The notes beneath the pieces were generated by a model, which worked only from the letters and a program-made list of their open reading frames with translations, had not been told where the DNA came from and ran no database searches. Position numbers and translations under genes: made by a program. A stretch of DNA of 22,389 nt, taken from the IMG/VR virus record IMGVR_UViG_3300047358_000271, positions 1 to 22,389 of that record, one strand, 5' to 3'. Below are positions 3,793 through 21,616 of the stretch, piece by piece. Numbering within the stretch: position 1 is the first letter of the stretch; the number at the start of each line of letters is the position of its first letter. Origin of the DNA: a virus.

Positions 3793-3793
3793 T

Positions 3794-6700
3794 ATGAACA
3801 CAAACAACTCTATTTCCAACTCACTGAAAAGGCTCCTAGAGCTTAATACTAATTCATTAAAAACTTTTGAAAGAATTAATGAGGCAGTAACTACTGAGCA
3901 GAAAAGTATTCCATTAGAGATACTTACTGACGAGGGTACTAAAATAGTATCTATACCTGGATTTGGCTTTATGCAAAAAGAGTTGCAGAGATTAGATACT
4001 AATCTTAAGGCTTTAACTGGTTTAGGTAAAGGTACAACTAAGATTAAATTACCAGATGGAACTTTTCAAAATATTATTACATCTGCTCTTAAGAGTCCAG
4101 CAAATGATTTAACTACAGTAGGAAGACCTATTAACTTCTCAACTGCTCCTAATTATTTTGCTGAAGACTTTTTAAACCCAATGCTTAAAACTTCTTTTGA
4201 TGTAAGTGGTCAAATTCCAAATGACACTGAAAGAGTTTTAGTAAAAAGAATTATATTTGATTCTTCAAATCAGGCTGCTGTAGAATTCTTTAACGATAAC
4301 TACAGAAACCAAGAGAATGTAGATTATTTAACTGCTATTAGAGATGTAGTAAATAATAACATTGCATATATTGTTGATGAAGAATTAAGAGATATGCCAT
4401 ATAGAACTGGACAATATACTGGAAAGTTTGATGTCCTATCAATTTCAAATTCACAGAGAGAAGTTATTGAAGGTGGCGTAACTAAGAAACAAGCTATTAA
4501 ATTATACACTTTAGACAAGTTAACTTATTCTGACAAATCAAAAGATCTAGACCAGACTGAATTACTTCGCGTAGGTGATGAATTGATGGTCGCTGGTGGT
4601 GCTAAAAACACAAGATATAGAATTGACAAGCTAGACTCTTCAACTAGACAGGTTGAGCTTAGATTGATTGAGGGCTATGAACCAATTAAGATTGGGGCTA
4701 ATGTTTTAGGTATCTACAAGAACGAAGATAATAACTTACAAATTGAAATTCCATGTGGATTCAACGAGAGAGTCTTAATGTTTATGAAAGCAATTGATGC
4801 TGATTCTAAACTATTAGCAGAGAACTGGTCTCCAGGTGTTGGTTATTATACAAATGAATTAACTCTTACTCAAGAGGATGGTGTAGAAATTACACTAGCA
4901 GAATACTATAAAGAGAATGTAGCTGATTTCAGTAGAATGATTGATGCATTAAAAGTAGATTCAGTTCCTCCTGCTGCAGTTGGTGTAACTCCTGATGCTC
5001 CTACATTAGATGGTGAGAATTTTAAGGTAGTACAAATTAATACACACCTAAGTGCAAACGATGCTAAGGGTAAGATTACAAAATTAAATGCTGATAAAAT
5101 TACAGTTGATGAGGCTGTTAAGAAATTAGATAGTACAATTGCTAAAAAGAGAGAAGAAATTGCTACTAAGAAATACGAATCTAACGTACAAAGAGATAAA
5201 GATAGATCCGAGTTAAACTCTTTAGTAGAAGAAAGAGTTTCTGAGGCTAAAATGTTTAGCTCTATTGTAAATCAAATCCAGAGTGTTTCTTCAGATACTA
5301 ACGTTAAGAAGGCATCTCCTAAATATAGAATTAGAGGTTTCTGGGCAATACCTACTGCTAAGAAAGTTGCAGATACTGCAGACCAAGAAGTAGTACAGTT
5401 TATTGTTGCATATAGATACCTATCAACTTCTGGTAAATCAGGTGAAGCTGCCCAACTTAAATTCAAAGAAGCAGGTAGAGAGAAAACAGCAGTATTCTCA
5501 AACTGGAATGAAAAGAAAACTAAAGTAAGACCAAGGGCTAAGTCGATTGCACCAGATGGTACAGTTTCTACTAAGTTTACATGGCAGCCATCAAGAGTAG
5601 AAGATGGTCAAGAGATTAACTTTAACCAATTAGATATTGCAATTAGTCAAGGTGAAACTGTAGAAATTAGAGTTAAATCAATTTCTGAAGCAGGTTATCC
5701 TCAGAATCCAATCATGTCTGATTGGTCAGAGTCATTAACCGTTGCTTTCCCAGAAGCTGAGATCGATACAGCAGATATTGCTGCAACAGTTGAAGCTAAT
5801 TTAGCTGAATTGGCTAGAGTAAGAATGAATGAAGAGTTAACTGCTCAAGGAGTTTATACTCACGTTGGAGATTCTTTTACTGCTAATGAAAGTTATTATG
5901 CTCACGTTGCAACCAATATTGCATCTGGATTCCTATCCCCAGAACAAAAACCAATCTCTGTTTATGACAAGATTGCTGAATTAGAAGCTATGATTTCTAG
6001 CCTTAAAGGTGAGGTTGAAGCTGAAGTTGGCGAGTTGGTTGTTAAGATAATATCTGAAGATGGTACTGTAACTAATGTAGCTAAAGATCAAACTATTCAA
6101 TTATTTGCTGGATATTATGTAGATGAGGTTGCTGGTTTGACTATTAGAAAGGGACATATTGTAAATAAGACATTTAAGTTACAGTTAGAAAATAGTAAAG
6201 CTACTAAACTAGAATTAGTTTCTAGATTAGTTGGTGATAGAAGCCTACCGGCTTATAGATCTTCTGCTCAAGGTTCAACAGAGAGTAGTAATGGTTTTGG
6301 TTTAGAACAAAATGACAATAACGCTGATGCTCCAGATAGAAAAGTAATAAATGATACTTATTATTTAACTGAGGGTAAATATGATTTAGCTCCTATTCAA
6401 TATCAGAATGTAGATACTAATAACGTTACTGAAGCTGGAGATGCTCCATATCAGTCAGCACAAAGACGTGGTCAATTTGTTTATAGTAGATTTATGGATG
6501 TTGCAAATCAAAACGCACATTATATCGTAGAACCTCTAGAAACTATTCCTTCAAACCCTAATGCTACTGATTATGAACATGCTTTAAGTTATGACTCTGG
6601 AACAGCTTTAGCCCCAAGTACTAGTGCAAATGATTTTATTTGGAACGGTGATTTTGGAGACGGCGAAGATTCTAATGGAAATTCATTAGGTGGATATAAT

Positions 6701-7522
6701 GGTCAATGGGATCCTAGTAAAGTAACTACCACTAGTGTTAGTAGTATAGGACTTTACCCATATAATAGAGGTTTGTATATACATAAAGACCATCCATTAC
6801 TAGAAAATGTATGGGAAGATGCTGATGAAAATCCAAATGGAATTGATATAGATGCTGTTAGAGATAGTATGATATTTTCAATGCCTAAAACAGCTACACA
6901 AGCGTTTGGTGCTACTTTATTTAGTTTCTTTGGTTACAATAGTGCACTTAAAAGTGCAAGTATTGGAAATAAGCAACAAACAGCATTCCATAATGGTAGA
7001 AGTTTAAGTGTTTCTAGCCCTGGAAGCGACTTAGGAAGACCTCTTAAAATGTCGTTTGAAGAAAATGACCAATACCTATTAGGTGGTAGATCTTGTGGTG
7101 CGTTCTTATTTATGTCCCCAATCAATATAGAAACATTAAAAGTTGGCGGTGACACTAGAAGAAGTAAAAAAGAAATAAACCCTAAAAAAGATAATGAATC
7201 TAATGCGGTTTCTGTAGACATTGTGTTCCAATATAGAATGACAGATTATTTTGGTAACAATGAGTCTATGGACACCGGAAGAATTGGAGGATTTGCTAGA
7301 TTAGCCTACAACAACCTGACTTATACTAAAAAGATTGGTTTAGATATTTTCGATAAATATGATGAGCAGTTCTCGTTTGATTTAGAGATATTTGCTAAAT
7401 ATAGTCCAAAAGGTAAAAACTTAAATTCAATTAAGGCCGCTAAGATAACTAGATCGGGCTCTATTTCAGGTCAACAGTGGTATTCACAGAGTAACGGTAG
7501 GAATATATTTAATACTATTTAA
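3794..7522 (+). CDS. Large structural protein with fibronectin-III-like core
   Basis: A 1242-aa protein. Residues 1-100 are helical and probably mediate assembly. Residues 135-400 are mixed alpha/beta. Residues about 422-500 form a charged coiled coil (KITKLNADKITVDEAVKKLD and onward). Residues about 505-652 look fibronectin type III-like: a RIRGFWAIP strand, an IVAYRYLS strand, FSNW, then GETVEIRVKSISEAGYP and SDWSESLTVAFP, which matches the usual FN3 ending of a 'RV.S.s..G' strand followed by 'SdWS'. A second short coiled coil lies at about 722-745. The remainder is an Asn/Asp/Gly-rich beta region ending in a basic tail. It follows the previous gene with a 1-base gap and is followed by the largest internal gap of the window, so it may close one transcription unit. 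FN3 modules are common in phage tail-tip, baseplate and fibre proteins. Its specific role is unknown. Confidence 0.72.
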   Translation: MNTNNSISNSLKRLLELNTNSLKTFERINEAVTTEQKSIPLEILTDEGTKIVSIPGFGFMQKELQRLDTNLKALTGLGKGTTKIKLPDGTFQNIITSALKSPANDLTTVGRPINFSTAPNYFAEDFLNPMLKTSFDVSGQIPNDTERVLVKRIIFDSSNQAAVEFFNDNYRNQENVDYLTAIRDVVNNNIAYIVDEELRDMPYRTGQYTGKFDVLSISNSQREVIEGGVTKKQAIKLYTLDKLTYSDKSKDLDQTELLRVGDELMVAGGAKNTRYRIDKLDSSTRQVELRLIEGYEPIKIGANVLGIYKNEDNNLQIEIPCGFNERVLMFMKAIDADSKLLAENWSPGVGYYTNELTLTQEDGVEITLAEYYKENVADFSRMIDALKVDSVPPAAVGVTPDAPTLDGENFKVVQINTHLSANDAKGKITKLNADKITVDEAVKKLDSTIAKKREEIATKKYESNVQRDKDRSELNSLVEERVSEAKMFSSIVNQIQSVSSDTNVKKASPKYRIRGFWAIPTAKKVADTADQEVVQFIVAYRYLSTSGKSGEAAQLKFKEAGREKTAVFSNWNEKKTKVRPRAKSIAPDGTVSTKFTWQPSRVEDGQEINFNQLDIAISQGETVEIRVKSISEAGYPQNPIMSDWSESLTVAFPEAEIDTADIAATVEANLAELARVRMNEELTAQGVYTHVGDSFTANESYYAHVATNIASGFLSPEQKPISVYDKIAELEAMISSLKGEVEAEVGELVVKIISEDGTVTNVAKDQTIQLFAGYYVDEVAGLTIRKGHIVNKTFKLQLENSKATKLELVSRLVGDRSLPAYRSSAQGSTESSNGFGLEQNDNNADAPDRKVINDTYYLTEGKYDLAPIQYQNVDTNNVTEAGDAPYQSAQRRGQFVYSRFMDVANQNAHYIVEPLETIPSNPNATDYEHALSYDSGTALAPSTSANDFIWNGDFGDGEDSNGNSLGGYNGQWDPSKVTTTSVSSIGLYPYNRGLYIHKDHPLLENVWEDADENPNGIDIDAVRDSMIFSMPKTATQAFGATLFSFFGYNSALKSASIGNKQQTAFHNGRSLSVSSPGSDLGRPLKMSFEENDQYLLGGRSCGAFLFMSPINIETLKVGGDTRRSKKEINPKKDNESNAVSVDIVFQYRMTDYFGNNESMDTGRIGGFARLAYNNLTYTKKIGLDIFDKYDEQFSFDLEIFAKYSPKGKNLNSIKAAKITRSGSISGQQWYSQSNGRNIFNTI

Positions 7523-7609: not shown

Positions 7610-10600
7610 ATGGCAAATATAAGTTTTCAACTTAATCCTACTGGACAAAATACTGCTGCATTGGCTATCACAAATGGGATGGGCGGTTCTGCAATTACTG
7701 TTTGGACAGATGATGTTAATAATTCTGGTACAGTTAATAGCAATGACGACGTTTATACAACCGAGTCTCAAGGTGTTTTATCCGGGCCATTTGCTGGAGG
7801 GAATCAATACTATGCGATTCAGGAAGCAGCAGGAAGTATTAATGCAGCACAAATAGACAATTCTGGTGAGATAATATCAATATCTACAATTGACTTTGGT
7901 TCTAGTGAAGCAAGTCCAATAACTATTCCAGCAGGCGGTGTTGGCGATACTATTGTTATTAATAATATAACATTGGCAGCAGGTACTGTTACAGCAGTTA
8001 CACCTGCTACTTACCAATTAGGTTCTACAACTTATGATGTTGATATTACTGTGCCCGCAGGATATTCAAATAGTGGGTCTACAATTACACTCCAATCTAC
8101 TGCAACAGGTACAACTACTACTGCACCTCCAGCTCAAACATTTACTATTTTAGTAACTGATAGTAATGGTGCAACACCTAGTCCGTTAGAATTCAATGAG
8201 GGTGATACAATAAATGTAACTATTCAGGCTAGTGTAACAGGTGGTACAACATCTCTTGATCTGGTTGGTAGTACTGCGGTAGAAGCAGATTTTACAACAT
8301 GGCCAACTGAGATTGGAACAGGGAATACGACAGCGACTCTAGATTTTAGTAATGCTACTACAGTTCCTTTACAATTTACTGTTTCTAATGATTTCAGTGA
8401 TAATACAAATAGTGGTGGTTCTCCAGAGGGCTCAGAGACTATTGTATTAACATTAACAGATGGAACAACTGAGACTATAACTATTATAGATTCTAGTCAG
8501 AATCAACCGCCGGTAACATCCGATGTAAATGCTACTATTACTCAGACTGGGGGTGCACTGAATTTTGTAACTATTGATTTATCTGCAGGAACTAATGACC
8601 CTGAAGGTAATCCTAATAATAGTTTAGAGTGGGTAATTAGTGATATACCTGCTAACGGTACTTTTAGAGATCCGGTGCTTTCAGGTGTAGATCTTACAGT
8701 CAACGACCTTCCATATACTTTACCCGGCTATGAATTACGATATTATCCTGGAACAATATTTCAGGGAACAGAGACTGTAACAGGGTGGTTGGTATCAGAT
8801 CCAAACGGAGGACAGAGTAATACATCTGATATTATCATAAATGTAACTGCCCCTACTAACCAAGATCCGGTTGCAACAAATGTTTCAGAGACTATTTCAG
8901 GAACTGGAGCTGGCATTAATGTTAACTTTAGTAGAGCTGCGACTGATGATTTAATCGGTGGAGCTTTACAACCGTTTCAATGGTGTTTAGCAGATGGAAC
9001 TCCACAGACTTTAGCACAAATAAATGCTACGCTAACTTATGGTTCTGTAAGTAATATTGCAGCAGAGGTCTGGCAGTATACAACCAATGCAAGTGCGACT
9101 TTAAACCCTGGGGCATCTTCAGTTGATGATACATTTTACTTTTTAGCAACAGATGCTGCAGGTGGAATTGATGTAGGTCAGGTTCAAATTCAAATTACAG
9201 CACCTGGTAATACAGCACCATACTTTAACGTATCAAATCCTGCTCCTATTGCAATTGACCAGGGGACTGCACATGTTGTGAGTAATATTGCTACAACAGA
9301 CCCTGAGGGACATACAGTAACGATTACTAAAATAGGCCAGGGAGGAACTGACACAGGTGCTAATGCTACTCTTAGTGGCAATACATTAACAGTTGTAGGT
9401 TCATCGCCAGGTACGGTTACTGTAACCCTAAGAGCAACTGACCAATTTGGTTTATCTGATCAGAGCAATGATGTAACTTATACATTTAACGTGACTGCAG
9501 TACCTTATAGAGCTGTAAGACATTCTAGTTTTTCAAATTCAGATGCAGCAGCATGTGGACTAGAAAGACCAATTAGTGAAATATACTACTATAATACTGG
9601 TCAAGGCGGGGCAACCTTTTTAGCTAATTTAGCAATAGGAGATGTTTTATACCAAGATTCCTCGTTAACTTTACCGGTTGTACCTAATAGCTCTAATTCT
9701 GCTTGGGTTTCATTAGAGGAAACATCACAGCAAACGGTAAAGGCTGCTAAATTAAACGCGACAACAGGGGCTATTGAAGAGTTTTTAAACTGTACTATTA
9801 CAGGGGGTAATGCATGGTCTATTGTAGTTAGATATTCTGAAAACTCATCACTTTATTGTGGTGGACTCTATGAAGAGGGAGAAGCTTGGCAAAATATAGG
9901 TCCTACTGCAACACTAACAGATGTTGTATCTGTAGGTGGTCAATTATTCCCAGATGAATTTTCTGCTAACCAATACTCAGGTGCTACAGCACCTACTGAT
10001 AGAATTTTAGCAGATGGTATTTACAATCAAGAGGATGATCCTGAGATTCCAAGTAGAGGATATTACTCTTACAATAACGGTTGGCAAACAAATCCAAATC
10101 CAGAGCCCAACGATCCAACCAACGATCCAAACGCGGTCGCGCAAGTGAATAGACTATATGTATGTCCACCAGATATTGTATATCAAACTAAATCGCTAGA
10201 TTGTTATTTTCTTAGCCAAGATCCTGCTAACGTAAGCGCGGTTTGTAATGCTATGACTGAGGTTGAATGGGATGATTCAAAACTTAACTTTGATGCAATA
10301 ACTATTTACTATAGACAAGATGTAAATGATAATGATACTTGGTCTTTACTAGATATTGCGAAAAATCAAACGCTTGTTTATACTGATCAAAACGCTGCAG
10401 ATAGTTTAAACTACAATCTTTTACAACCTACTTCTATTTTATTAGACTCTAGTAGTGGAGGTTTTGTTTTATGGGATAATAACGAATTTACAGGATATGA
10501 TGGTTCATATAAGTGGTATGCATTCTCTCCAGATGATGGGAATGTTGCCACACAAGATAATATACTAGAGGTTGCTGATATAGGATCTATTTACGGAGCA

Positions 10601-13600
10601 TGTGGCGATGGAATAACCGGACCTAGTGCTGATTATGAAAGACCTAATCTTTTTGAAATACAGGATGGCCTTACTAATATAGGCGTTGGAACTAATAGTG
10701 GCACTGGAACTAATGTTTATTATGTGTTTTATGCATGTGACTCTGAATTAGATCCAGGAGTACCTGGAGGTTCTCCATATTACCCGGTTTATTTAGTAGA
10801 TGGTATGGTTGAAAACATCCAAATGCTTGACCCTGGTTATTCTTATATTAATGATTTTGTAAGAACTATAACAGGTACTAGTAAAAATACAAGAGCTCAA
10901 ATTAAACTAGGTGGTAAATGTTTAACATATACGAATTATGTTGTAGCAACCAATATAGAAGAGGCTGTTGCTTTTATGGAAGCAGAGATAGAAGGTTTAT
11001 CTACGGATAATATTGCACTATCAGGTGCGGGAGATGTTCCTGCTCGTGTTGTTTCTATTAACGCTATAGATTTAGGGTTTGCAAGTGAGGCTCAAGCTTC
11101 TTGGTTACAGATTGATAATGCAAATAAAGATACTATATGTTACACTTGTTTAACTCAAACAGGGAACTGGACTTTATATGATTTTCCAACTATAGATAAT
11201 GCTGAGATTCTAAATAGGACTCTACCTAATTTTGACCTAGAAGAAAACTATGTATTAGACGGTGTATCAAAGCCATTATTAAGAACTAATCCTAAGTTAT
11301 CAACTAACGTTAAATTAGTAGTAAATAATGATGATAGAATTTATATTGAGTCTATTGATGCTACTAAAGAGTTAGCTTCCGTAGAGTATAAAAGATGGGA
11401 ACTTAACCCTAATGGGGATTGGTCTCAAGATTTATATAAATTCTTTAAGAGTAGTTCTACTCCTGCTGATATAATGTATGCGACAAGATCTGATTACTCT
11501 GATTTTACAGTACAAGACTCTTTTGATAAACAAATAGAAGAGGTATATCATTATGGGACAACATATAACTATTCTAAACTACACGATGAGGATTTTAGAA
11601 TGTTAGCTCCTATTTGGTTAGATAAAGATATTCCTAAAAGATTCGTAGTATTTAGGGTTAACGATCCTGTTGGTGAGTTAGACTTTGACGATAAAACTAA
11701 CTTTAATAATATACAAGATATTTTAAAACATTCTCAAATTATTAAGACCTTTGATTTAACAGATGATTCTTCTATTGGTAAATATATTAGAAACCATGTT
11801 AACTCAGAATCTTTCCCTAAAACTCCAATACAGTTTAACTTTTCTAAAGGAGAAAAGAGTAATTTTAGAGGTATTGATTTAGGAAAAGGAGGGTTTACTT
11901 CTAAGGGCGAATATTTACATAAAGATTTTGTTTATACAGACAATCCTTTAATATCTAGTAACGCTTTAATTACAGATGGTTTTGAAAGAAATAAGCTTGC
12001 TTGTGCTAACCTAATTAATTTAGAATTCTTATTTAATGATGACGGGGCGTCCGATTATACTATTAATAGATATTTTGGATTATATGTAAACGATATTGAT
12101 TCTGGGTACGGTTCTTTAAGTTCTGCGGATAATGGTAATATTATATTTAATTCTTTAAATTCACAAATTAATGAAGACCCTACATCAGCAATACCTTCGT
12201 TTAAACATATTTCAGGAACACCTACATTAGGCTATATGTCTATTAGTAATGAGTTCTATAAAATATCATCTAAAGCAAAATATGACCCTGAGAACTTAAA
12301 TTTAATAGTTGAAGATGATACTAATAAAATACCTGCTGAAATTAAAACTGCAGAAAATGATAAATCTGTAGATATTGTAAAAGAAGATTCTGTAGGTTTT
12401 GACTTTGTTAAATTTACAGTAACGGGAACTCCAGCAGTAAATGATAGATTTACGGTCTTCGAATCTAGAGAATCTTCGTATTCTTTAAAATTCTTAAGAC
12501 ATATACCTAACGAACAATGGAATCTTTCTTTTAACAATGGCGGTAATGTTCAAAATATGACTATTGTAACACAAAGTAATATCCAGGGGACTGTAGGAGT
12601 TATATCTGCTGCAATAAACTCTAATAATATTAATGTTACGTATGATGAAACTATTAATCCTAAAGAGTTTTATATTACAGAAAAGAATGCAACGCTAGGA
12701 GATTTAGAAATATCATTTAACGCTATTTCCCCTCTTACTAGTAGCAGTATAGTTAAGATTACTCAAATACAATCTTCTTTAAATTTAGGCAACTCTACTT
12801 TCTTTGCTACACATAACTTAGAGCCTGGAACTTTTAATCAAACTTCTTTCTCTCTACAAGGCTCATTTGCTGATATTGCACGTGCAATATCTGGAGCTAT
12901 AAATGCAAGTTCAATTAATTTCGACGCTGTGATAGAGGACGGAGCAACTGAATTTTATGTTAAGAATAGAGTATCTGGCTATAAACTTTTACAATCAGGT
13001 GTTTTAATTCCTTTTAATAATGCTAATAATTTTATTACTTTAGAAAATAGAGATTTAAAATCTGACGGATTACCTAATGGCGAGTTAAGATTGGCTAATA
13101 ATGTTGCTACTTCTAATTTTGTACACTTTATGAAGGGTGGTAACTCTGCTGGTAAGTCTGTTTTAATAACTAAAGATTCTGTTTCGGATATTAACATAGG
13201 AGATATGTTAGCTACAAGTTCGACAGGTGTTTTTAATAAAGTAATAGATATTGTAGATGATATTTCAAATTCAAATACTATATACAAAAAGTTAATTTTA
13301 GAAAGTAAAAATACTTTAGAAAGTGGAGAACAAAAAGTTTACGCAGAAAATATTGCTAGGCTTGGGTTATTCTCAGCATACGATATTCATGATATGAATT
13401 TCGATTTTTACGATACAAAAAATTCTGACCTAAAAGAATTAGAATTAGAAACTGCTACTAATATTAACTACGAACCTGAAAGAAGTACATCTAATACCCT
13501 TTCAGTTTTTGGAAATGATTATGATATAACAGATCCTTATAGTTATTTTAGTGGTATTAGTGATGTTTTACCTGAAGAAATATTAGATGAATATAACGAA

Positions 13601-16054
13601 GTTAAGTTATCTAGTGAATACGACAGGTTAGAAGAAAACAACTTAAAAGAGTTTGCTGTTAGATCTAGAGTAACTCCTAATATTAACAAATGGGTTTTAA
13701 AAGATAGTTTAACTGTAAGAGAACAGCCATATTACTTAAATGCTAATGAGGCTTTTGGAAGGACTAACTTTTCACCTGATTTTGGAGCAAATAATAGAGA
13801 TAGACTTGGGATGACGCATGAGTGGTTTTACATGGATAACTTACCTAAGTATTTACAATATACAGACCTTAATAATACGTTTAGTTATGTAAACTTTATG
13901 GACGGTTTTGAATTAAAACCTTCACATTTTAAAAGCACAACATATAACTACTTTGATAAATTTATGATAACGGATGGTTTTGAAATAAAAGACCAGTATG
14001 ATATAAATACATTTATTAAAACAGACCTAAAGAAAAAGTATACTTTAATTTCAGGCGGTAATGATGTATCTTTTGCTAGTACTATTTTTAAGGGTATTAA
14101 AGTTGATTTTAAAAATAGAAAAGAGTTTTTAAATAATAAAGCTACTGAGTTTGTTAAAACATCTGATTTTAATGGGTATAAGTTTAGTACTTTACTTTTA
14201 GTAAGAGGTGGAGCTAATAGAAACGGAGTTGAATATGAGATAATTCAAAATAAAGCTTTTAAATTTGTTATATTTTTAATCACAGTATCTTTAGATGATT
14301 TATGGATAGACGGAGCTTTAAATAGAAAACTTATGTATGAGATGAATCATAGTTTTGTATGGAACCATGAAGAAAGAAACTTCTCTTACTCTGATGTAAA
14401 ACTTTCTGGTGCATTAAATCTAAATGATATTAATTTTACAGCCCCAAGTGCTGCTAATTATTTAATAGCTAATGGAATTGAACACTCCGATGGAACTTTG
14501 CCTCAATTCTTAGATCAAATTAACCCAGATGACGATGATGCATTTGGTGAAATTTTCATAACCATTACAGATTCTACTGGTGAAACAACTATTAAGGTTA
14601 AAATAAACTCTGTAGATGACCAAGGTCAAATAACTCTAGCTGGACCTCCAGTTGACTTAAATGGCAACTCTGTTAATGTTTCTAATATAGCTGGTTACAT
14701 TCAAAGAAGCGCAGAGTATGTATATAAACAGGGTGGTAAAAACGCATTCACGACGATCTTAGACCAATTAGCAGTAGCTAATGTAGATAATTTATTAAAA
14801 CTAAATGACGGTGATATAACTTATACTACTATTGAAGAAGATGGAGAAGTTTTAAATAACCAATTTGAATTAGAATTTGAAAACGGAGTTGAAATTATTA
14901 AAGAGGCTAGTTTAGTTACAATTTCTGATGAGGATAAACCTAAAACCTTTAAATTAAAACAAGGTACTATAGGTTACAATCTTTTTTCTGCAGATACGTA
15001 CTATCCATTCTTAGTTAGACATAACGGAAACTATACACTAGATACTAGACCTGTTGTAACTTTTACAGATACTTATTCTCATTTTAAAACTAATACTCTA
15101 CAGACTTCATTAAATACAAGAGAGTTGAATTTTGAAGAGCCTATATATAAACATTCTTTAACTAGGGCAGAAGAAATTAAATTAGCTAGAGATTATTACA
15201 AGAGATATAATAGATGTGGAACTGCATTTAACTTAGGGTTCATACAAGATAATGGAATACATGATTCGGAGTGGGGTATAATTAAAAACCACTTCTATAG
15301 AAAGGTAAATGAATCTGGTGCAACTAACGTAACTAAATTATCAGCAACAACTGATAAATTACCTTTATATCCATTGATTGGAGAAGTTGCAATAGATAAA
15401 AAAGACGTAAATGTATTTAGGTCTTCTTGGGATAAGAATTATTATACCAGGTCTTTATCAGGAGGTTTGGCACAGCCAGTTCCGGGTACATTTGAAACTA
15501 AGGAGGAGAGATCTTATTTAGGTTCTACTATTATGAAAGTAAAAGACTCATATAATATGACTCAATTTACTACTACAACTGTAAAAACTCAAAAAGAGCA
15601 AGATTCTATATTAGCTAATAATAACAATACGACTGATGTGGTGTTATTTGAAGATAAAAAATATGTATACATAGATTTCTATATTACTACTACTATTAAG
15701 AAGTTATTAGCACAAGATGGTGTATTAGATTCTATTAATAAATATGTTGCTGCGGTAGATTCTGCAGGTGATAAAACTACAACTAAGGACGATGCACTAC
15801 TTTATGTTGAAGATAATTTGATTAATACTTTTAATTTAGATATAATTAAAATATATTCTAATAGAATAAAGGGTGTTTCTTCAGAAATACTTTCTTCTGC
15901 AAGTATTGACAATTTAGATGATGGTGGCTATAAAAACGATATAAACTTTACGTTTAAGTCGCATGAACAAAAGCCCCTTAATTTTAGATTGATATATAAT
16001 AAAAGATTAGGTTACTCTTATATGATTAGACCTATGGTAAAAATAAAGTCATAA
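7610..16054 (+). CDS. Giant modular virion protein (2814 aa) with adhesin-type N-terminal domains
   Basis: Residues 1-165 are Gly/Thr/Asn-rich beta; about 166-176 form a Thr-rich linker (GTTTTAPPA); about 177-295 resemble Calx-beta (FNEGDTINVTI, late EGSETIVLTL). About 298-415, 417-530 and 533-632 look like cadherin-like/tandem-Ig repeats, starting N..PV or NTAPYF with DPEG, ATD and DPNGG turns. About 645-730 is a Cys-flanked module with GDVLYQDSSLT. An Asn/Pro linker lies at about 828-845, then a Cys-rich region to about 1190. From about 1222 (PLLRTNPKLSTNVKLVV) to the end is a long region whose late part (AFNLGFIQDNGIHD, VNVFRSSWDKNYYTRSLSGG) I recall, unsearched, from other large Bacteroidota phages. 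No signal peptide, membrane helix or enzyme motif is visible. It is probably a long tail, baseplate or fibre protein: the C-terminal two-thirds the conserved body and the N-terminal third the likely surface-binding extension. Confidence 0.8.
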   Translation: MANISFQLNPTGQNTAALAITNGMGGSAITVWTDDVNNSGTVNSNDDVYTTESQGVLSGPFAGGNQYYAIQEAAGSINAAQIDNSGEIISISTIDFGSSEASPITIPAGGVGDTIVINNITLAAGTVTAVTPATYQLGSTTYDVDITVPAGYSNSGSTITLQSTATGTTTTAPPAQTFTILVTDSNGATPSPLEFNEGDTINVTIQASVTGGTTSLDLVGSTAVEADFTTWPTEIGTGNTTATLDFSNATTVPLQFTVSNDFSDNTNSGGSPEGSETIVLTLTDGTTETITIIDSSQNQPPVTSDVNATITQTGGALNFVTIDLSAGTNDPEGNPNNSLEWVISDIPANGTFRDPVLSGVDLTVNDLPYTLPGYELRYYPGTIFQGTETVTGWLVSDPNGGQSNTSDIIINVTAPTNQDPVATNVSETISGTGAGINVNFSRAATDDLIGGALQPFQWCLADGTPQTLAQINATLTYGSVSNIAAEVWQYTTNASATLNPGASSVDDTFYFLATDAAGGIDVGQVQIQITAPGNTAPYFNVSNPAPIAIDQGTAHVVSNIATTDPEGHTVTITKIGQGGTDTGANATLSGNTLTVVGSSPGTVTVTLRATDQFGLSDQSNDVTYTFNVTAVPYRAVRHSSFSNSDAAACGLERPISEIYYYNTGQGGATFLANLAIGDVLYQDSSLTLPVVPNSSNSAWVSLEETSQQTVKAAKLNATTGAIEEFLNCTITGGNAWSIVVRYSENSSLYCGGLYEEGEAWQNIGPTATLTDVVSVGGQLFPDEFSANQYSGATAPTDRILADGIYNQEDDPEIPSRGYYSYNNGWQTNPNPEPNDPTNDPNAVAQVNRLYVCPPDIVYQTKSLDCYFLSQDPANVSAVCNAMTEVEWDDSKLNFDAITIYYRQDVNDNDTWSLLDIAKNQTLVYTDQNAADSLNYNLLQPTSILLDSSSGGFVLWDNNEFTGYDGSYKWYAFSPDDGNVATQDNILEVADIGSIYGACGDGITGPSADYERPNLFEIQDGLTNIGVGTNSGTGTNVYYVFYACDSELDPGVPGGSPYYPVYLVDGMVENIQMLDPGYSYINDFVRTITGTSKNTRAQIKLGGKCLTYTNYVVATNIEEAVAFMEAEIEGLSTDNIALSGAGDVPARVVSINAIDLGFASEAQASWLQIDNANKDTICYTCLTQTGNWTLYDFPTIDNAEILNRTLPNFDLEENYVLDGVSKPLLRTNPKLSTNVKLVVNNDDRIYIESIDATKELASVEYKRWELNPNGDWSQDLYKFFKSSSTPADIMYATRSDYSDFTVQDSFDKQIEEVYHYGTTYNYSKLHDEDFRMLAPIWLDKDIPKRFVVFRVNDPVGELDFDDKTNFNNIQDILKHSQIIKTFDLTDDSSIGKYIRNHVNSESFPKTPIQFNFSKGEKSNFRGIDLGKGGFTSKGEYLHKDFVYTDNPLISSNALITDGFERNKLACANLINLEFLFNDDGASDYTINRYFGLYVNDIDSGYGSLSSADNGNIIFNSLNSQINEDPTSAIPSFKHISGTPTLGYMSISNEFYKISSKAKYDPENLNLIVEDDTNKIPAEIKTAENDKSVDIVKEDSVGFDFVKFTVTGTPAVNDRFTVFESRESSYSLKFLRHIPNEQWNLSFNNGGNVQNMTIVTQSNIQGTVGVISAAINSNNINVTYDETINPKEFYITEKNATLGDLEISFNAISPLTSSSIVKITQIQSSLNLGNSTFFATHNLEPGTFNQTSFSLQGSFADIARAISGAINASSINFDAVIEDGATEFYVKNRVSGYKLLQSGVLIPFNNANNFITLENRDLKSDGLPNGELRLANNVATSNFVHFMKGGNSAGKSVLITKDSVSDINIGDMLATSSTGVFNKVIDIVDDISNSNTIYKKLILESKNTLESGEQKVYAENIARLGLFSAYDIHDMNFDFYDTKNSDLKELELETATNINYEPERSTSNTLSVFGNDYDITDPYSYFSGISDVLPEEILDEYNEVKLSSEYDRLEENNLKEFAVRSRVTPNINKWVLKDSLTVREQPYYLNANEAFGRTNFSPDFGANNRDRLGMTHEWFYMDNLPKYLQYTDLNNTFSYVNFMDGFELKPSHFKSTTYNYFDKFMITDGFEIKDQYDINTFIKTDLKKKYTLISGGNDVSFASTIFKGIKVDFKNRKEFLNNKATEFVKTSDFNGYKFSTLLLVRGGANRNGVEYEIIQNKAFKFVIFLITVSLDDLWIDGALNRKLMYEMNHSFVWNHEERNFSYSDVKLSGALNLNDINFTAPSAANYLIANGIEHSDGTLPQFLDQINPDDDDAFGEIFITITDSTGETTIKVKINSVDDQGQITLAGPPVDLNGNSVNVSNIAGYIQRSAEYVYKQGGKNAFTTILDQLAVANVDNLLKLNDGDITYTTIEEDGEVLNNQFELEFENGVEIIKEASLVTISDEDKPKTFKLKQGTIGYNLFSADTYYPFLVRHNGNYTLDTRPVVTFTDTYSHFKTNTLQTSLNTRELNFEEPIYKHSLTRAEEIKLARDYYKRYNRCGTAFNLGFIQDNGIHDSEWGIIKNHFYRKVNESGATNVTKLSATTDKLPLYPLIGEVAIDKKDVNVFRSSWDKNYYTRSLSGGLAQPVPGTFETKEERSYLGSTIMKVKDSYNMTQFTTTTVKTQKEQDSILANNNNTTDVVLFEDKKYVYIDFYITTTIKKLLAQDGVLDSINKYVAAVDSAGDKTTTKDDALLYVEDNLINTFNLDIIKIYSNRIKGVSSEILSSASIDNLDDGGYKNDINFTFKSHEQKPLNFRLIYNKRLGYSYMIRPMVKIKS
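10109..10132 (+). repeat. Two 12-bp tandem units encoding an Asn/Pro linker
   Basis: 'aacgatccaacc' at 10109-10120 is followed by 'aacgatccaaac' at 10121-10132, encoding the NDPTNDPN part of a proline/asparagine linker near residue 835 of the giant protein. The linker separates the adhesin-like N-terminal third from the Cys-rich and conserved remainder. The following bases (gcggtcgcgc) are locally more G+C-rich than their surroundings, which could mark a past joining point. Confidence 0.6.
15989..16001 (+). promoter_or_regulatory. Possible promoter box inside the 3' end of the giant gene
   Basis: An exact copy of TTGATATATAATA, also found at 7559-7571, ends 56 bases before the ATG of the collagen-like fibre gene at 16058. 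Here it lies within coding sequence for residues reading LIYN. Together with the copy before the giant gene, it may give each of these two genes its own late transcript. Coincidence in A+T-rich coding DNA remains possible. Confidence 0.3.
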
Positions 16055-16057
16055 GAA

Positions 16058-17770
16058 ATGGCCATTAACATTCAAGAAATACTACACCCTAGTGACTCTG
16101 ATAGTATCAAGTTTGAGAAGATTAACTATAACTTCGACCAGATACTAGCAAACGGTGGCGGACCTGTTGGACCTAAGGGCCAAAAGGGAATCCAAGGAGT
16201 ACTAGGTCAAACCGGTGAAAAAGGCGAAAAAGGTGACTTAGGTCCAGTTGGCCCATCTGGTGAAACAACTAGCCCTTGGAAATCTATTGCGATAGATTTG
16301 AATGCACAAGACGGCGTAAATGATGTCACTATTTTAAAGCCTAAGCCGCAAAATGATAAAGAAACTCCTGTTATTTGGTTAGGAGATTCTGCATTTATTA
16401 ATGATGGTAATCCAGCCGGGGATGGAGATGTTACTTTAAGATCTACTTTGAATATTAGTAGACACTCTAATTTTGGACCTCCCTCGAGTATTGAGGCTGG
16501 GTATGTAACTTTATGGCATGATGCTAATAATAAAATTAGAATTGATTCTGAGAATGTAAATACTGGCTCTGGCTTTGTTAGATATAACATAACCCCAGTA
16601 CAGCCTATTACCGGTAGTCAAGATATTAGATTGCAGATTAATGCACCAACAATACACACAGAGACATTTCAATTAGATAATCAGGCTGCTAGTGGAGCTT
16701 TATCTAGTGGTATGATTAGATATAATTCAGGTGGTAATAAATTTGAAGGTTATATTAATAATGCTTGGGTAGAGTTTTGTATGGATCCTTGTGGTTCAGG
16801 CGGAGTTACTGGTACTATTTCAATATCAGGTGGAGACTTAAACCTTAACGCTGATGGTACTTTAAGTGGAGATTCCATTTCAATATCAGGTGGCGACTTA
16901 AATCTTAATAACGATGGTACTGTTAATAGTGGGTCTACATCTTCTACGACATCTACATCTTCTACGACATCTACATCTTCTACGACAGCAGCGCCCCAAA
17001 CTCAACAATATACTATCTATTTTTCTGGTAATAGTTTGGCTAATAACAATTGGGACATTGACTCCCTGGTATTAGATCAAGCTTATTCAGGTTCTGCTAG
17101 TAATCCTAATTTTTCGTATGATAGCGGAACATTGACTGGTATGATAACTGCAGCAGCGGGAGATATTTTAAGATTTCAAATAACAGCAAGTGCAACAGTA
17201 GGTCGAGAGTTTAGTAGTGGAGCTCCATTTAATGTTGGAGGTGGAACGATAATATCCCAGCAGGTATCTCAAAATAATACTGATGCTGGTCTTGAAATTG
17301 AAATAGGTTTACCTATGACAGGTACATCTGATAATGTTACTATTGAAGCTGCAACAGTTCAATTATTGCCGCCTAATGCGGACGACTTTGATTTTACTAC
17401 AGGTCAAATGACTAATCCATCCGGTCTACCAGTGACCTTTGGAAACGGTATGCTAGATCAACTTCCTGTAACTCAAGGCGGTGGAAATATAGCTCTTCAT
17501 TTTGATTCAAGTAATACTATAGCACAGTCTGATTTTTCTATTCCTAATTTTGTTACATGGGCTAGTTCTAACCCGTTAAGTTACAATGGTACAACTGATA
17601 CTGGTACCTTGAATTTAGTAGTTAATGGAAATACTGGAAGTAATTCTAATGCTAGAACAGGTAATGTTACATATACTGGTACATTGACGATGGGTAATGT
17701 AGGGAACGTCCAGATACTGCAAGACGGTAATAGTGTAACGAGTCCAAGCCCTTATGGTCAAAATAACTGA
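16058..17770 (+). CDS. Collagen-like tail fibre with Ser/Thr stalk and BACON-like tip
   Basis: A 570-aa protein. Residues 3-26 carry the docking-like pattern NIQEIL...DS.S...INYNF, shared with the protein at 1264. Residues 35-70 are twelve uninterrupted Gly-X-Y triplets, a short collagen-like helix implying a trimer. Residues about 71-215 are beta-rich. Residues 218-241 (SGMIRYN, FEGYINNAWVEFC) match the end motif of many phage fibres. Added after this are two 20-residue SISGGDLNLN repeats (252-291), a Ser/Thr linker (about 292-313), a beta domain (about 315-435) and a BACON-like domain (about 470-560: W at 501, NARTGNVTY, then VQILQDGN). BACON domains are typical of Bacteroidota and their phages and are thought to bind carbohydrate or mucin. 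Three bases separate it from the upstream gene. It is the only gene here ending in TGA, immediately followed by an in-frame TAA. A host-recognition fibre is inferred. Confidence 0.8.
   Translation: MAINIQEILHPSDSDSIKFEKINYNFDQILANGGGPVGPKGQKGIQGVLGQTGEKGEKGDLGPVGPSGETTSPWKSIAIDLNAQDGVNDVTILKPKPQNDKETPVIWLGDSAFINDGNPAGDGDVTLRSTLNISRHSNFGPPSSIEAGYVTLWHDANNKIRIDSENVNTGSGFVRYNITPVQPITGSQDIRLQINAPTIHTETFQLDNQAASGALSSGMIRYNSGGNKFEGYINNAWVEFCMDPCGSGGVTGTISISGGDLNLNADGTLSGDSISISGGDLNLNNDGTVNSGSTSSTTSTSSTTSTSSTTAAPQTQQYTIYFSGNSLANNNWDIDSLVLDQAYSGSASNPNFSYDSGTLTGMITAAAGDILRFQITASATVGREFSSGAPFNVGGGTIISQQVSQNNTDAGLEIEIGLPMTGTSDNVTIEAATVQLLPPNADDFDFTTGQMTNPSGLPVTFGNGMLDQLPVTQGGGNIALHFDSSNTIAQSDFSIPNFVTWASSNPLSYNGTTDTGTLNLVVNGNTGSNSNARTGNVTYTGTLTMGNVGNVQILQDGNSVTSPSPYGQNN
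16160..16267 (+). other. Collagen-like Gly-X-Y segment
   Basis: This stretch encodes twelve consecutive Gly-X-Y triplets (residues 35-70 of the fibre), including GPK, GQK, two GEK and two GPV/GPS-type triplets. Lys and Glu are enriched in the X and Y positions, which stabilises triple helices without hydroxyproline. Such segments are known in phage fibres as trimer-forming rods. Confidence 0.85.
16811..16930 (+). repeat. Two 60-bp tandem copies within the fibre gene
   Basis: Copies at 16811-16870 and 16871-16930 are in frame and encode 20 residues each with the core SISGGDLNLN.DGT. The first halves are nearly identical at the DNA level, including 'atttcaatatcaggtgg', and differ mostly later in the unit, which fits an in-frame duplication followed by drift. 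They lie just after the usual fibre end motif and just before the Ser/Thr stalk. Confidence 0.85.
16934..16987 (+). repeat. Three perfect 18-bp tandem copies encoding a Ser/Thr stalk
   Basis: The unit tctacatcttctacgaca occurs three times without any mismatch, at 16934-16951, 16952-16969 and 16970-16987. Each copy encodes STSSTT in the fibre frame. Perfect identity at synonymous positions indicates recent expansion or ongoing slippage. Because the unit is a multiple of three, gain or loss of copies would change the stalk length without breaking the gene. Confidence 0.92.
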
Positions 17771-17789
17771 TAAGATTAATATAAAATAT

Positions 17790-18599
17790 ATGAACGACAA
17801 AATAAAAAATATATTAGCAAATAGAACTCTGGTAACTTTCGTTGCGGGAGCTCTTCTGTGTTTATTATTTCTTAAACAATGTAATAGTATTGAGAATTTA
17901 AAACAAGATGTAAAATTAGCACAACAAGATGCTGATAGAAATCTTAATAATTTTAAAGCAGCTCAAGATTCAGTTACTGTTTTAAGAAATGATAACGGAG
18001 ACCAGTTAGCTCAAATTAGATCTTTTGAATTTGATTTATCTAACTTACAGAATAGTCAAGCTAATTTAACTAAAAGATACCAAAAGGCTCTTGCGTTAAA
18101 TAAAGACTTGAAGAAGGTTAACTCGCTGATTTCTGCAGAATTAGAAATTACAGATAGCCTAGACGTTGCAACGTCAACGGAGGTAGTAGATACAACTACA
18201 TCAAAAATTAATTTCGAGTCTAGTAGAGATTTCGGAAATGGAAACTCAAGATTCTTAACTGGATATTCCACTGTTAAATATGACTTTGGTAAATTTACGG
18301 TATTAGATACTAAATTTGAGTTAAAACAAACTCTAAGCTTAATGGCTGCAATTGAAGAAGGAGAAGATGGTGCAGATAGATTAAAACTGTCAACGACGTA
18401 TCCTGGCTTAGAGATTAAAGATATTGAAAATATCAACCTAGTTAATACTAGACTAAATAGAAGATCAGAGAAAAAAGCTGGTTGGGGTATTGGTCTTGGT
18501 GTAGGTTATGGTATTAATTTAAACAATAACCAAGTGATTAGTACAGGCCCTTCAATTGGGATCGGTCTTTATTGGTCACCTAAATTTTTAAGATTTTAA
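17790..18599 (+). CDS. Membrane-anchored coiled-coil protein, spanin-like layout
   Basis: From ATG 17790 this is 269 aa. An alternative in-frame ATG at 17754 would add 12 residues and overlap the fibre gene by 17 bases; 17790 is preferred because an A-rich leader precedes it and the N-terminus then reads directly into the membrane segment. Residues about 13-29 are hydrophobic (TLVTFVAGALLCLLFLKQ) with Lys/Arg before them, fitting an N-in inner-membrane anchor. Residues about 33-118 are a long coiled coil. Residues about 140-225 are beta/helical. Residues 228-269 are Gly-rich and amphipathic (GWGIGLGVGYGINL...GPSIGIGLYW) and end in Phe, like outer-membrane beta strands. One anchor, a periplasmic coil and an outer-membrane-like end suggest an envelope-spanning protein such as a spanin, though a tail or assembly role is possible. 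I do not recognise the family with certainty. Confidence 0.72.
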   Translation: MNDKIKNILANRTLVTFVAGALLCLLFLKQCNSIENLKQDVKLAQQDADRNLNNFKAAQDSVTVLRNDNGDQLAQIRSFEFDLSNLQNSQANLTKRYQKALALNKDLKKVNSLISAELEITDSLDVATSTEVVDTTTSKINFESSRDFGNGNSRFLTGYSTVKYDFGKFTVLDTKFELKQTLSLMAAIEEGEDGADRLKLSTTYPGLEIKDIENINLVNTRLNRRSEKKAGWGIGLGVGYGINLNNNQVISTGPSIGIGLYWSPKFLRF

Positions 18600-20672
18600 A
18601 TGGCGCAATCAAGTAGATATTTTAGAATAGACGAAGACATCCTGTTAGAGTTTATCTACCACGATCAAGGTGACTTGGAAAAGTACAAGATTGAAGTAGA
18701 TGATAACGGTAGCGAGGTAATGTTTTTAGATACAGTAGATCAAGATCCGTATCAAGCTAGACACTTAATTAATGAATTAGGTTCTGCGGTAGTGAACTTT
18801 GATGTTACTGTTATGAGTGGTTATATTGCTGTAGAAAACTTCGCGGCTAGAACTCTACTTCTGCAAAATGGTAAGACTTACAAATTTGATTTGAGTGCTC
18901 TACCTAATCCAGCTGATTTTTCTATCTCTGGTCAATTAGGTATTTACACTTATTCTCCAGTTACTAATATTGGACAATTTACTCCAAATGTAAATGGTAA
19001 AATTTCTTACAGCTATCCAGGACTAAAGGGTGGTAAAATAATTGTAGATACTAGAGCTAATCCTCTTTTTGCATCACCAGATGAAGCAACAGGAAATGAT
19101 ATTAACCAGACAATTGGAAGATACCATGCAATTAAAACTCCTGGACCATCAGATACTACAAAGTATGCTCTTTTAGGTTACGACTCAACCGGAGATTATG
19201 ATATGCATAACTATATTAATAATAGTTTTGAATGGCAAGGTGGTAATGAGGCTGATTTATTAAATTATCAAACAGAAGCAACTCAAAATATTAACTATAT
19301 TTTATACGATAGTATTAGACTGCATTTAAAATCAGGTTTTAGTTTTTCTGCAAGAGGATATGAGGGTTTCTTATTTGAAGTTACTTCTAGAAGAACAAGT
19401 GGTATTAATAACTTTTTGACTCAGTTGGTTTATTTAAACCAAAGTAACTATGAGTTTTCAAATCCTAAACCATTTATTTTAGGAGAGACACTTTGGTCTA
19501 AATATATTAATTTAAAAATACCTACTATTGTAAATCAGAATTCAGAATTTAATGATAGGTTTTACGGAAATGGATCTCCAGGTTCAAGTGACTTAGACCT
19601 AACTGCTAATTACGGGATTAGATTTGCACTTCTAGATCAATTAAGAACTATCGAAGGTTTCGACTATGTTTATACTGCAGAAGAGAATAAGTTTACAGTC
19701 TCTAGAGAAGATGAATATGCTGATTTCACAGTTGTAGTTGAAGATGCGGAAGACGGGGATTACTTTAATATTTACGGAGAGAAAGACAATTCAATCAATA
19801 ATTTTGAGGGACATATATTAAATAGAATTCAAACGTCAGCAGATGATATTGTGGTTATGTATGACGTAGATGTATTTGAGCAAATAGGAACTGCTCAAGT
19901 AAAATCTTATACTAGTCAATTTACACAATACGAGAGTTTTAACGATCCAATAAAATTTAGACCTGTAATTAACCAAGCTAATATTGCTGTTAACTTCTCG
20001 ATTGAAGTAACAATGAGAATTTACAATCAAACAGATAATACACAGATTGTAAAAAGAGCAAGTTTAACAATAGACCAAGCTGCTAGATATGGTAAGAAGT
20101 TAAGTGCTTTAAAAATTGATAACCCAAATATATTAACTGAGGTTTACAATATACTGCCTAGCCTTGCTACTAATAAAGTTATCTCAGGTTTTATTACTGA
20201 CAATCTACCAAGATCAGTAAAAACAGTACCCGCATTTGTTGAAAGACATAATGTAATTGCTAGTTCTGCAAAAGTAAATTTAGTCGGTGCTGGTGATAAT
20301 CCAATTACAAAAGAGGTTGAAGAATTCGATACAACTGATTTTGTAAATGAAGGTGATTTATCTATTAGTATTCCTCCTTTTGCATCTTACTATAAATTTG
20401 CTATTGCTAAGAAAAGAGGAGATGATTTTGATATGATTTCATTTGAGAATGCAGAAAGAGTTATACTTACATTTAATGACGGTAAACAAAAATTAAAATT
20501 TAACCATGTCTATAATAAAGATATTGATATGGGCTTAGGTGAAGTTCTGTTTACTATTAATGAAGCTAACGCGACAAGTATTAGAGGTATGAAGACTGAC
20601 GCTTTCTATATTAGCATTGATAATGGGACCGAAGAGACTATGATTACTAAAGGTAAATTTACTATTGGATAA
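18600..20672 (+). CDS. Phage structural protein of unknown role
   Basis: A 690-aa protein with no signal peptide, membrane segment or catalytic motif. It opens with SRYFRIDEDILLEFIYHD, which I recall loosely, without a search, from structural proteins of Bacteroidota phages. Residues about 60-160 are beta strands (VVNFDVTVMSGYIAVENF, GKISYSYPGLKGGKIIVDT). The centre has Asn/Tyr-rich strands, and about residues 490-530 contain RIYNQTDNTQIVKRASLTI followed by YGKKLSALKI. The C-terminus is a beta domain. Its ATG directly follows the TAA of the upstream gene with no spacer, and its own stop overlaps the next ATG by one base (TAATG), so translation with the tail-tube-like gene downstream is probably coupled. 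A tail or baseplate component that contacts the tube is plausible from this pairing but unproven. Confidence 0.7.
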   Translation: MAQSSRYFRIDEDILLEFIYHDQGDLEKYKIEVDDNGSEVMFLDTVDQDPYQARHLINELGSAVVNFDVTVMSGYIAVENFAARTLLLQNGKTYKFDLSALPNPADFSISGQLGIYTYSPVTNIGQFTPNVNGKISYSYPGLKGGKIIVDTRANPLFASPDEATGNDINQTIGRYHAIKTPGPSDTTKYALLGYDSTGDYDMHNYINNSFEWQGGNEADLLNYQTEATQNINYILYDSIRLHLKSGFSFSARGYEGFLFEVTSRRTSGINNFLTQLVYLNQSNYEFSNPKPFILGETLWSKYINLKIPTIVNQNSEFNDRFYGNGSPGSSDLDLTANYGIRFALLDQLRTIEGFDYVYTAEENKFTVSREDEYADFTVVVEDAEDGDYFNIYGEKDNSINNFEGHILNRIQTSADDIVVMYDVDVFEQIGTAQVKSYTSQFTQYESFNDPIKFRPVINQANIAVNFSIEVTMRIYNQTDNTQIVKRASLTIDQAARYGKKLSALKIDNPNILTEVYNILPSLATNKVISGFITDNLPRSVKTVPAFVERHNVIASSAKVNLVGAGDNPITKEVEEFDTTDFVNEGDLSISIPPFASYYKFAIAKKRGDDFDMISFENAERVILTFNDGKQKLKFNHVYNKDIDMGLGEVLFTINEANATSIRGMKTDAFYISIDNGTEETMITKGKFTIG

Positions 20673-21237: not shown

Positions 21238-21615
21238 ATGAAAGATACTAAAACATTTAACGAATACTTAGTTGAGCAAAAGCTGACTGATACGGATATG
21301 AAGCTTTTACAAGAAGGCCTTCAACAAGAGTGGACTCAAGATTTAGAAGATAAAGTTGATTATGCATTAGAGCAATTTGTACAACAATACCAAAAAGAAG
21401 ATGGTACTTTTGAATTAGACAGACTAGAAGAAGCTTTTGTAAATGAAGGACTTTTAGGTTCTATCTTTGGTGGTTTAGCAGGATTTGCTTTAGGTAAATC
21501 TGTTGGTAAAGTTATTGCTAAAGTACTTGGTATTCAAAAAGGTATTTTCTACGATTTATTAACTTCCCGTTTAGTTGGCGCTGCCCTAGGTGCTGCAATG
21601 GGTAAAAGAATCTAA
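21238..21615 (+). CDS. Small glycine-zipper protein with T4-like capsid-targeting N-terminus
   Basis: A 125-aa protein. Residues 5-13 read KTFNEYLVE and align without gaps to the T4 internal-protein capsid-targeting sequence KTYQEFIAE, matching the pattern K-T-aromatic-x-E-aromatic-aliphatic-x-E. In T4 this peptide directs proteins into the prohead core and is cut after the final Glu by the gp21 protease, which favours Leu/Ile-x-Glu. LVE at 11-13 fits that rule, and LQE (24-26) and LEE (63-65) are further possible sites. Residues 14-68 are acidic and helical. Residues 70-125 are hydrophobic with regular Gly/Ala spacing (GLLGSIFGGLAGFALGKSVG, then RLVGAALGAAMGK), a glycine-zipper pattern of membrane-inserting peptides. 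Inference: a head internal protein that may enter the host with the DNA. Alternatives are a scaffold or core protein, or a holin-like peptide. It lies 14 bases after the tube-like gene. Confidence 0.65.
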   Translation: MKDTKTFNEYLVEQKLTDTDMKLLQEGLQQEWTQDLEDKVDYALEQFVQQYQKEDGTFELDRLEEAFVNEGLLGSIFGGLAGFALGKSVGKVIAKVLGIQKGIFYDLLTSRLVGAALGAAMGKRI

Positions 21616-21616
21616 A

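Follow-up and report, generated by a model that had tools for sequence, protein, structure and literature searches.

A variable modular N-terminal arm on a conserved, putative baseplate protein of phages related to PAU, PTm1 and Lak

Does a phage protein whose N-terminal part is assembled from modules of the surface-adhesin type point this end towards the host? The question is raised by a gene residing on the IMG/VR virus record IMGVR_UViG_3300047358_000271, a DNA of 22,389 bases, the whole of which was analyzed and is called the window here. The gene (7610..16054, plus strand) is a single open frame with an ATG at 7610 and a stop at 16054. It encodes 2814 amino acids and occupies 38% of the window, in agreement with the initial annotation, which had noted one gene on more than a third of this DNA. 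Full-length frames homologous to it exist in relatives. No inverted repeat was found just upstream of the gene.

Conservation along the protein

A scan of IMG/VR with the full protein yielded 57 loci, from which 42 closed frames of more than 2300 aa (37 unique) were aligned to the window protein. The alignment disclosed a sharp step of conservation at about residue 1200. In blocks of 200 residues, the mean identity to the window protein amounted to 11, 16, 22, 30, 25 and 28% before the step and to 60, 57, 38, 48, 71, 44, 65, 58 and 77% after it, the last block being short. At the same position gaps dropped from 56% to 0-3%, and many indels gave way to almost none. Residues from about 640 to 1200 were intermediate in conservation rather than conserved. 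A variable N-terminal part followed by a conserved remainder had been predicted in the initial annotation; the alignment bore this out, and the same pattern was seen in close pairs of homologues and in dN/dS values. The annotation had also described an adhesin-like N-terminal third. Ig/cadherin-like modules are indeed contained in this region, but its size had been underestimated, as the variable part comprises 1208 aa (43% of the protein) and additionally includes, at residues 640-1208, three units framed by cysteines and a junction domain, which had not been separated before.

A conserved body shared with named phages

Judged by sequence comparison, residues from about 1209 to 2814 are a conserved body, which is homologous to a hypothetical protein of the phages PAU, PTm1, pT24, MA9V-1 and MA9V-2 and of megaphages including Lak. 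The N-terminal domain of the body (residues 1209-1520; 11234..12169, plus strand) is its most widely conserved part and forms the protein start in body-only homologues; within it, residues 1222-1498 match phrog_31887 (E 1.5e-46). Highly conserved is also the C-terminal part (residues 1901-2814; 13310..16051, plus strand). By tblastn, the body was detected in 30 annotated phage records, among them the Tenacibaculum phages pT24, PTm1 and PTm5, Sphingomonas phage PAU, the Chryseobacterium phages MA9V-1 and MA9V-2, Prevotella Lak phages and uncultured huge phages of 462-735 kb. According to a title in the reference list of PMC10537231, the host of PAU is now placed in Sphingobacterium and thus, the named hosts of the body-carrying phages found here are Bacteroidota. 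Mostly Bacteroidota are also the predicted hosts of the moraphages, aquatic jumbo phages described in PMC12619734, which are similar to the phages studied here.

The proteins of PAU (gp265), PTm1 (ORF-295), pT24 (BPT24_145) and MA9V-1/2 start 0-20 residues before the conserved motif. The same body-only start was found in the uncultured phages L059, L064, L066 and L069 as well as in the contigs L056, L136, L140-L144, L146 and L148, and several body-only relatives share the neighbours of the window gene. Thus, we concluded that the body is a widely shared protein, while residues 1-1208 of the window protein are an addition. PAU gp265, representing the phrog_31887 family, has in common with the window protein a homologous N-terminal domain of the body. 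Homologous is the upstream neighbour too: the window gene at 3794..7522 (plus strand, 1242 aa) matches phrog_29329 (E 3.5e-153), corresponds to PAU gp264 and is kept beside the body gene. In contrast, PAU gp265, PTm1 ORF-295, pT24 BPT24_145 and MA9V-1 ORF15 are only 1020-1478 aa long and lack the 1208-aa arm of the window protein. All these members of the family are annotated as hypothetical or merely by number, and a search of the PDB by sequence did not reveal a body homologue of known function.

The body was modelled using residues 1208-2400 and 22 sequences. With a mean pLDDT of 54, the model permits conclusions on a single domain at most, located at about residues 1619-1726 (12464..12787, plus strand). 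In this low-confidence model, the predicted fold of the domain is similar to the protruding domain of contractile tail sheaths and to that of FliD, with a best Z of 10.1 over 88 residues at an rmsd of 2.3. Fold matches, also with regard to wedge proteins, were confined to this domain.

Modules of the arm

At the extreme N-terminus, hmmsearch identified a cap (S0, residues 1-85; 7610..7864, plus strand), which recurs at this position in many extended homologues and exhibits a weak profile similarity to the first Cys-framed unit, U1 (hhalign probability 46.8%). The variable region at residues 170-300 (8117..8509, plus strand) had been labelled Calx-beta. This label had to be abandoned, since the family PF03160 gave no match in any of nine records even at E <= 1 and was absent from a Pfam scan of 18 N-terminal segments. 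Three Ig/cadherin-like modules, supported by Big_9 matches and hhalign, reside at about residues 300-636 (8507..9517, plus strand), the second and third of which are related to each other (hhalign 96.7%). The Big_9 matches in the window (8990-9190, E 5.0e-6; 9239-9466, E 2.3e-4) scored 21.9-22.5 bits and thus stayed under the curated cut-off of 23.6, which was exceeded in seven of the nine records examined. In 22 arm segments, Pfam disclosed Big_9 (20 segments), Cadherin_5 (nine) and Bact_surface_Ig-like (six), while the outer 500 residues of 18 proteins contained Bact_surface_Ig-like (six), HYR (three), Big_3 (three) and fn3 (one). It is by these modules only that the arm may be called adhesin-like.

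The Cys-framed units U1, U2 and U3 span residues 640-1003 (9527..10618, plus strand) and were modelled with a confidence of mostly 80-96. Each unit is bounded by two cysteines that are invariant in 22 aligned sequences (649/728, 750/852 and 879/998). U2 and U3 are related (hhalign 95.7%), but a relationship of U1 could not be demonstrated by hhalign. The junction domain J (residues 1031-1208; 10700..11233, plus strand) likewise contains two cysteines, 1104 and 1180, invariant in the 22 sequences; the invariant positions of the arm also include Trp and Gly residues. Profiles prepared from the window modules revealed a common order, in which the cap comes first, followed by Ig-type modules in varying number, by U1-U2-U3 and finally, beside the body, by J. 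Among the matches listed, J directly precedes the body in 62 of 69 non-redundant extensions, and it was found in 27 of the 33 listed extensions that had not been used for profile building. The seven extensions without a detectable J are those of L065, L106, L111, L113, L135, L145 and L147. L106 possesses the smallest arm, in which about one Cys-framed unit of approximately 100 aa was recognized by eye, though not by the profiles.

A model of residues 620-1520 (58 sequences) reached a mean pLDDT of 81 and a pTM of 0.46. It contained a low-confidence stretch at 1204-1211, which is the border between arm and body. A fold match to this model was not found in the PDB (best Foldseek E 0.5, best Z 3.1); as U and J were modelled only within 620-1520, we refrain from calling the fold new. 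In BFVD, the model matched body-family proteins, namely those of PTm1 and pT24 and one of 1262 aa, which is as long as PAU gp265. A few shorter proteins matched as well, including one from Cellulophaga phage phi17:1. The U and J region and the single unit of L106 gave no tblastn match in 50,697 phage records, 22 arm members had no match in PHROGs, and a scan of bacterial genomes with the U and J alignment yielded two pattern matches but no relative. The Cys-framed units may be a surface-binding domain so far absent from Pfam and PHROGs.

Length variation and unrelated N-terminal additions

Searching more widely with the body domain added at least 80 loci. At least 143 loci carry the body domain at its start, many loci of both IMG/VR scans sitting on the same contigs. 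Among the matches listed, 81 closed non-redundant proteins were available for comparison, 65 of them extended and 16 body-only. Open-ended frames, exact duplicates, Lak sequences read with table 11, the frame-broken L038 and L093, and L015 and L109, whose frame ends early, had been dropped; the split L097 was not counted, and L126, which ends at a contig edge, did not contribute a body-only protein. The body gene is interrupted in the metagenome contigs of L038, L093 and L097, where it falls into several frames.

Within this listed set, the 65 extended proteins had arms of 107-1601 aa (mean 958, sd 247) on bodies of 1594-1780 aa (mean 1644, sd 34). Sixteen of the 81 listed proteins begin at the N-terminal domain of the body, which is preceded by 1208 residues in the window protein. 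L135 has an N-terminal addition of 356 aa with TSP_3 repeats (E 4.2e-22) and is nested in an otherwise body-only clade (support 98/98 and 100/100; a second tree agrees). Because of long branches among the named phages and Lak, only this placement was used from the trees. In Lak-C1 and Lak-B5, 817 and 750 extra N-terminal residues were found when TAG was read as Gln. The Lak homologues thus resemble the window protein in that a long, less conserved N-terminal addition (47% identity between the two Lak phages versus 78% in the body) is joined to a homologous body, but they differ from it as their additions match none of the arm-module profiles of the window lineage. Hence, there are three kinds of N-terminal additions unrelated in sequence, the J/U/Ig arm, the TSP_3 addition of L135 and those of Lak. 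An extension at the other end was detected in L069, whose N-terminus is of the body-only type. It comprises 1118 aa, includes a LamG lectin-like domain (E 1.4e-15) and indicates that the C-terminus of the body is not always buried and can be accessible.

Rates of evolution

For dN/dS, 13 pairs were chosen from the alignment, and the gene was divided into the arm (here residues 1-640), U plus J (641-1208) and the body. The values were 0.30-0.94 for the arm, 0.05-0.45 for U plus J and 0.05-0.20 for the body, the arm exceeding the body in all 13 pairs. In pairs whose bodies were 98-99% identical, identity was 74-92% in the distal arm and 93-100% in U plus J. In L024/L026, L004/L007 and similar pairs, dS was level along the gene, so that the gradient of dN/dS can be ascribed to selection. 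In L010/L046 and L024/L031, the arm dS reached about five times the body value, suggesting an exchange of arm sequences. To judge from these dS values, part of the arm variability is recombination. Since no dN/dS above 1 was obtained, positive selection is not claimed.

Polarity in comparison with the neighbouring fibre gene

The gene located directly downstream (16058..17770, plus strand) encodes a collagen-like protein of the tail-fibre type (570 aa) with a conserved N-terminus and a variable C-terminus. In comparison with 56 closed non-redundant next genes of other loci, among the matches listed, its identity stood at 84% over the first 30 residues and had dropped to 6-10% past residue 300. 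According to the usual rule for fibres (PMC10684548), the conserved N-terminus binds to the tail and the variable C-terminus to the receptor. Determined by fifths from the N- to the C-terminus, identity was 19, 31, 52, 58 and 59% for the arm gene and 70, 34, 34, 12 and 15% for the fibre gene. Nine window genes, each measured in 12-20 loci, were included in this control. None of the other seven displayed a comparable N-terminal collapse, the lowest first fifth being 50% (gene at 17754). The window protein is similar to a conventional tail fibre or tailspike by its modular, fast-evolving part on a conserved anchor, but the polarity is reversed, the N-terminus being variable and the C-terminal body conserved. 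As far as conservation tells, the arm protein breaks the polarity rule that its downstream neighbour obeys.

It had been supposed from the beginning that the N-terminus would face outward if the body is anchored via its C-terminus. An outward N-terminus is supported by evolution, namely by the body-only starts, the tolerance of arms of 107-1601 aa, the unrelated N-terminal additions and the opposite polarity of the fibre gene. The premise of C-terminal anchoring did not find support; with the C-terminal LamG extension of 1118 aa in L069, this end can be accessible too. Literature searches for reversed-polarity fibres or N-terminal Ig fusions on baseplates gave no matching report, which does not prove their absence. 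By its arm/body architecture and reversed polarity, the protein would represent a variant among the modular host-contact proteins of tailed phages.

Position within a baseplate gene cluster

A gp25 gene, always scoring under the family cut-off, was found in six of 13 contigs searched. In all six, it resides on the strand of the body gene, 11.06-11.40 kb upstream of it, as derived from the locus coordinates; two of these contigs are those of the body-only L148 and of L135. The sole contig in which the genes in between were read is that of L158. There, a V/gp5-like spike gene (PF04717, 2.4e-7) and gp25 are followed by a gp6-like wedge gene (609 aa; phrog_219, E 1.6e-29), a 93-aa frame, homologues of the first four genes of the window and the body gene. 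Thus, compared with the T4-type baseplate wedge, the body gene lies in a baseplate cluster (gp25; the gp6-like gene in L158). Searches of the PDB disclosed neither a sequence match to the T4-type wedge proteins gp7, gp8, gp10 and gp11 nor a baseplate role for the neighbours at 1-1257 and 3794-7522. The sheath family PF17482 matched in four of seven related contigs, PF04984 in none of the seven; the search for tail-tube families was silent in the controls too and hence uninformative. Virion proteomics naming any body homologue was not found.

Two other genes of the cluster deserve mention. In L158, a gene at 3091-4374, located among the baseplate genes, has a product that contains S1 RNA-binding domains (PF00575, E 4.3e-20). 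For the window gene at 1-1257, a likeness to P2 gpI or T4 gp7 was considered, but was not borne out by Pfam. All ten aligned homologues of this gene (L041 938-3694 and relatives) showed a weak PKD match (best E 0.0025), suggesting that Ig-type folds may not be confined to a single gene of the cluster.

A putative host-facing arm

On the whole, we consider it probable that the protein sits at the periphery of the baseplate and bears a modular, host-facing adhesion arm on its exposed N-terminus. Its presence in the virion is suggested by the baseplate gene cluster. The protein would form part of the outer baseplate in a large phage with a contractile tail, akin to PAU, Lak and PTm1. While the C-terminal 1600 residues would be built into the particle, the N-terminal 1200 residues would leave the body via a flexible hinge near 1204-1211 and project outward as a modular arm, composed, from the body to the tip, of the junction domain, the three Cys-framed units with their putative disulphides, a row of Ig/cadherin-like spacers and the N-terminal cap. 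Glycans or proteins on the surface of the host may be contacted by the arm, which could serve as an additional adhesin or take part in the choice of receptor. It would work beside the ordinary fibre with a C-terminal tip that is encoded just downstream.

It is less likely, but has to be taken seriously, that the same exposed arm forms a decoration layer, which mediates weak, unspecific adhesion without host choice. A role of this kind has been suggested for the Ig-like domains of other phages. A mere decoration would agree with the free interchange of Ig-type modules (Big_9, Bact_surface_Ig-like, HYR, fn3 and Cadherin_4) and with the fact that the arm can shrink to one unit of about 100 aa (L106) or be absent, which means that it is not essential for infection in this family. 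On the other hand, evolution is fastest in the distal part, yet with dN/dS below 1, as expected for a ligand-binding tip under host change, although this pattern separates the two readings poorly. It is rather improbable that the body belongs to the neck, the collar or a head fibre and that the arm is a whisker or head fibre. This idea derives from PTm1 and pT24, in which the body gene adjoins the genes for a DNA end protector and the portal, PTm1 harboring in addition an annotated neck protein gene three genes upstream, and from the fibres reported on PTm1 and PTm5 heads (PMC13282480). In the window lineage, however, the gene is located downstream of the spike, gp25 and gp6-like genes and just before the collagen-like fibre gene, and in PAU and MA9V-1 the gene next to the body gene encodes a tail protein (phrog_8763), termed short tail fiber in PMC10537231. 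Very improbable is a weakly constrained, dispensable spacer varying by relaxed selection, which would suit the big length changes, the losses and the recombination in the arm, but is opposed by the invariant Cys, Trp and Gly positions, dN/dS values below 1, confidently predicted compact units and the repeated acquisition of modules of the surface-protein type.

Beyond the baseplate-borne adhesion arm, which we prefer, it is conceivable, though somewhat doubtful, that in PAU/Lak-related phages the N-terminus of the body generally is a plug-in socket for unrelated host-facing arms (Ig modules with Cys-framed units, TSP_3 rods, the 750-817 aa of Lak), constituting a receptor-binding apparatus of reversed polarity beside a normal fibre. 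Ig-like domains on phage virions are usually placed C-terminally. Such virion domains, the subject of Fraser et al. 2006 as cited in PMC5259590, have in common with the window protein that Ig-type modules are joined to a structural protein and swapped between relatives, whereas the window protein combines several modules and Cys-framed units in one N-terminal arm of a baseplate-cluster protein. The N-terminal position of the arm suggests a different build of the part that makes the first host contact. Predictions of host range usually consider the C-termini of fibres. If our reading is true, host-contact genes have been missed in aquatic phages and gut Lak megaphages, hidden in a hypothetical protein of the baseplate cluster. 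The natural variants with a body only or with one unit make the role of the arm directly testable.

Other observations on the structural genes

Relatives of the gene at 17754-18599 match only from residue 10-17 on and therefore, its true start is probably located later. The product exhibits an N-terminal hydrophobic stretch, a glycine-rich C-terminus and a weak match to DUF6808 (E 0.0021), like an envelope protein. The body of L147 contains an insertion of about 100 residues (about 1797-1901), which resembles residues 58-149 of the product of window gene 18600-20672 (34% identity, E 2.2e-4), hinting at an exchange of modules between neighbouring structural genes. At the end of the structural gene run, a RuvC-like Holliday junction resolvase is encoded at 21590-22288 (phrog_159, E 1.8e-11).
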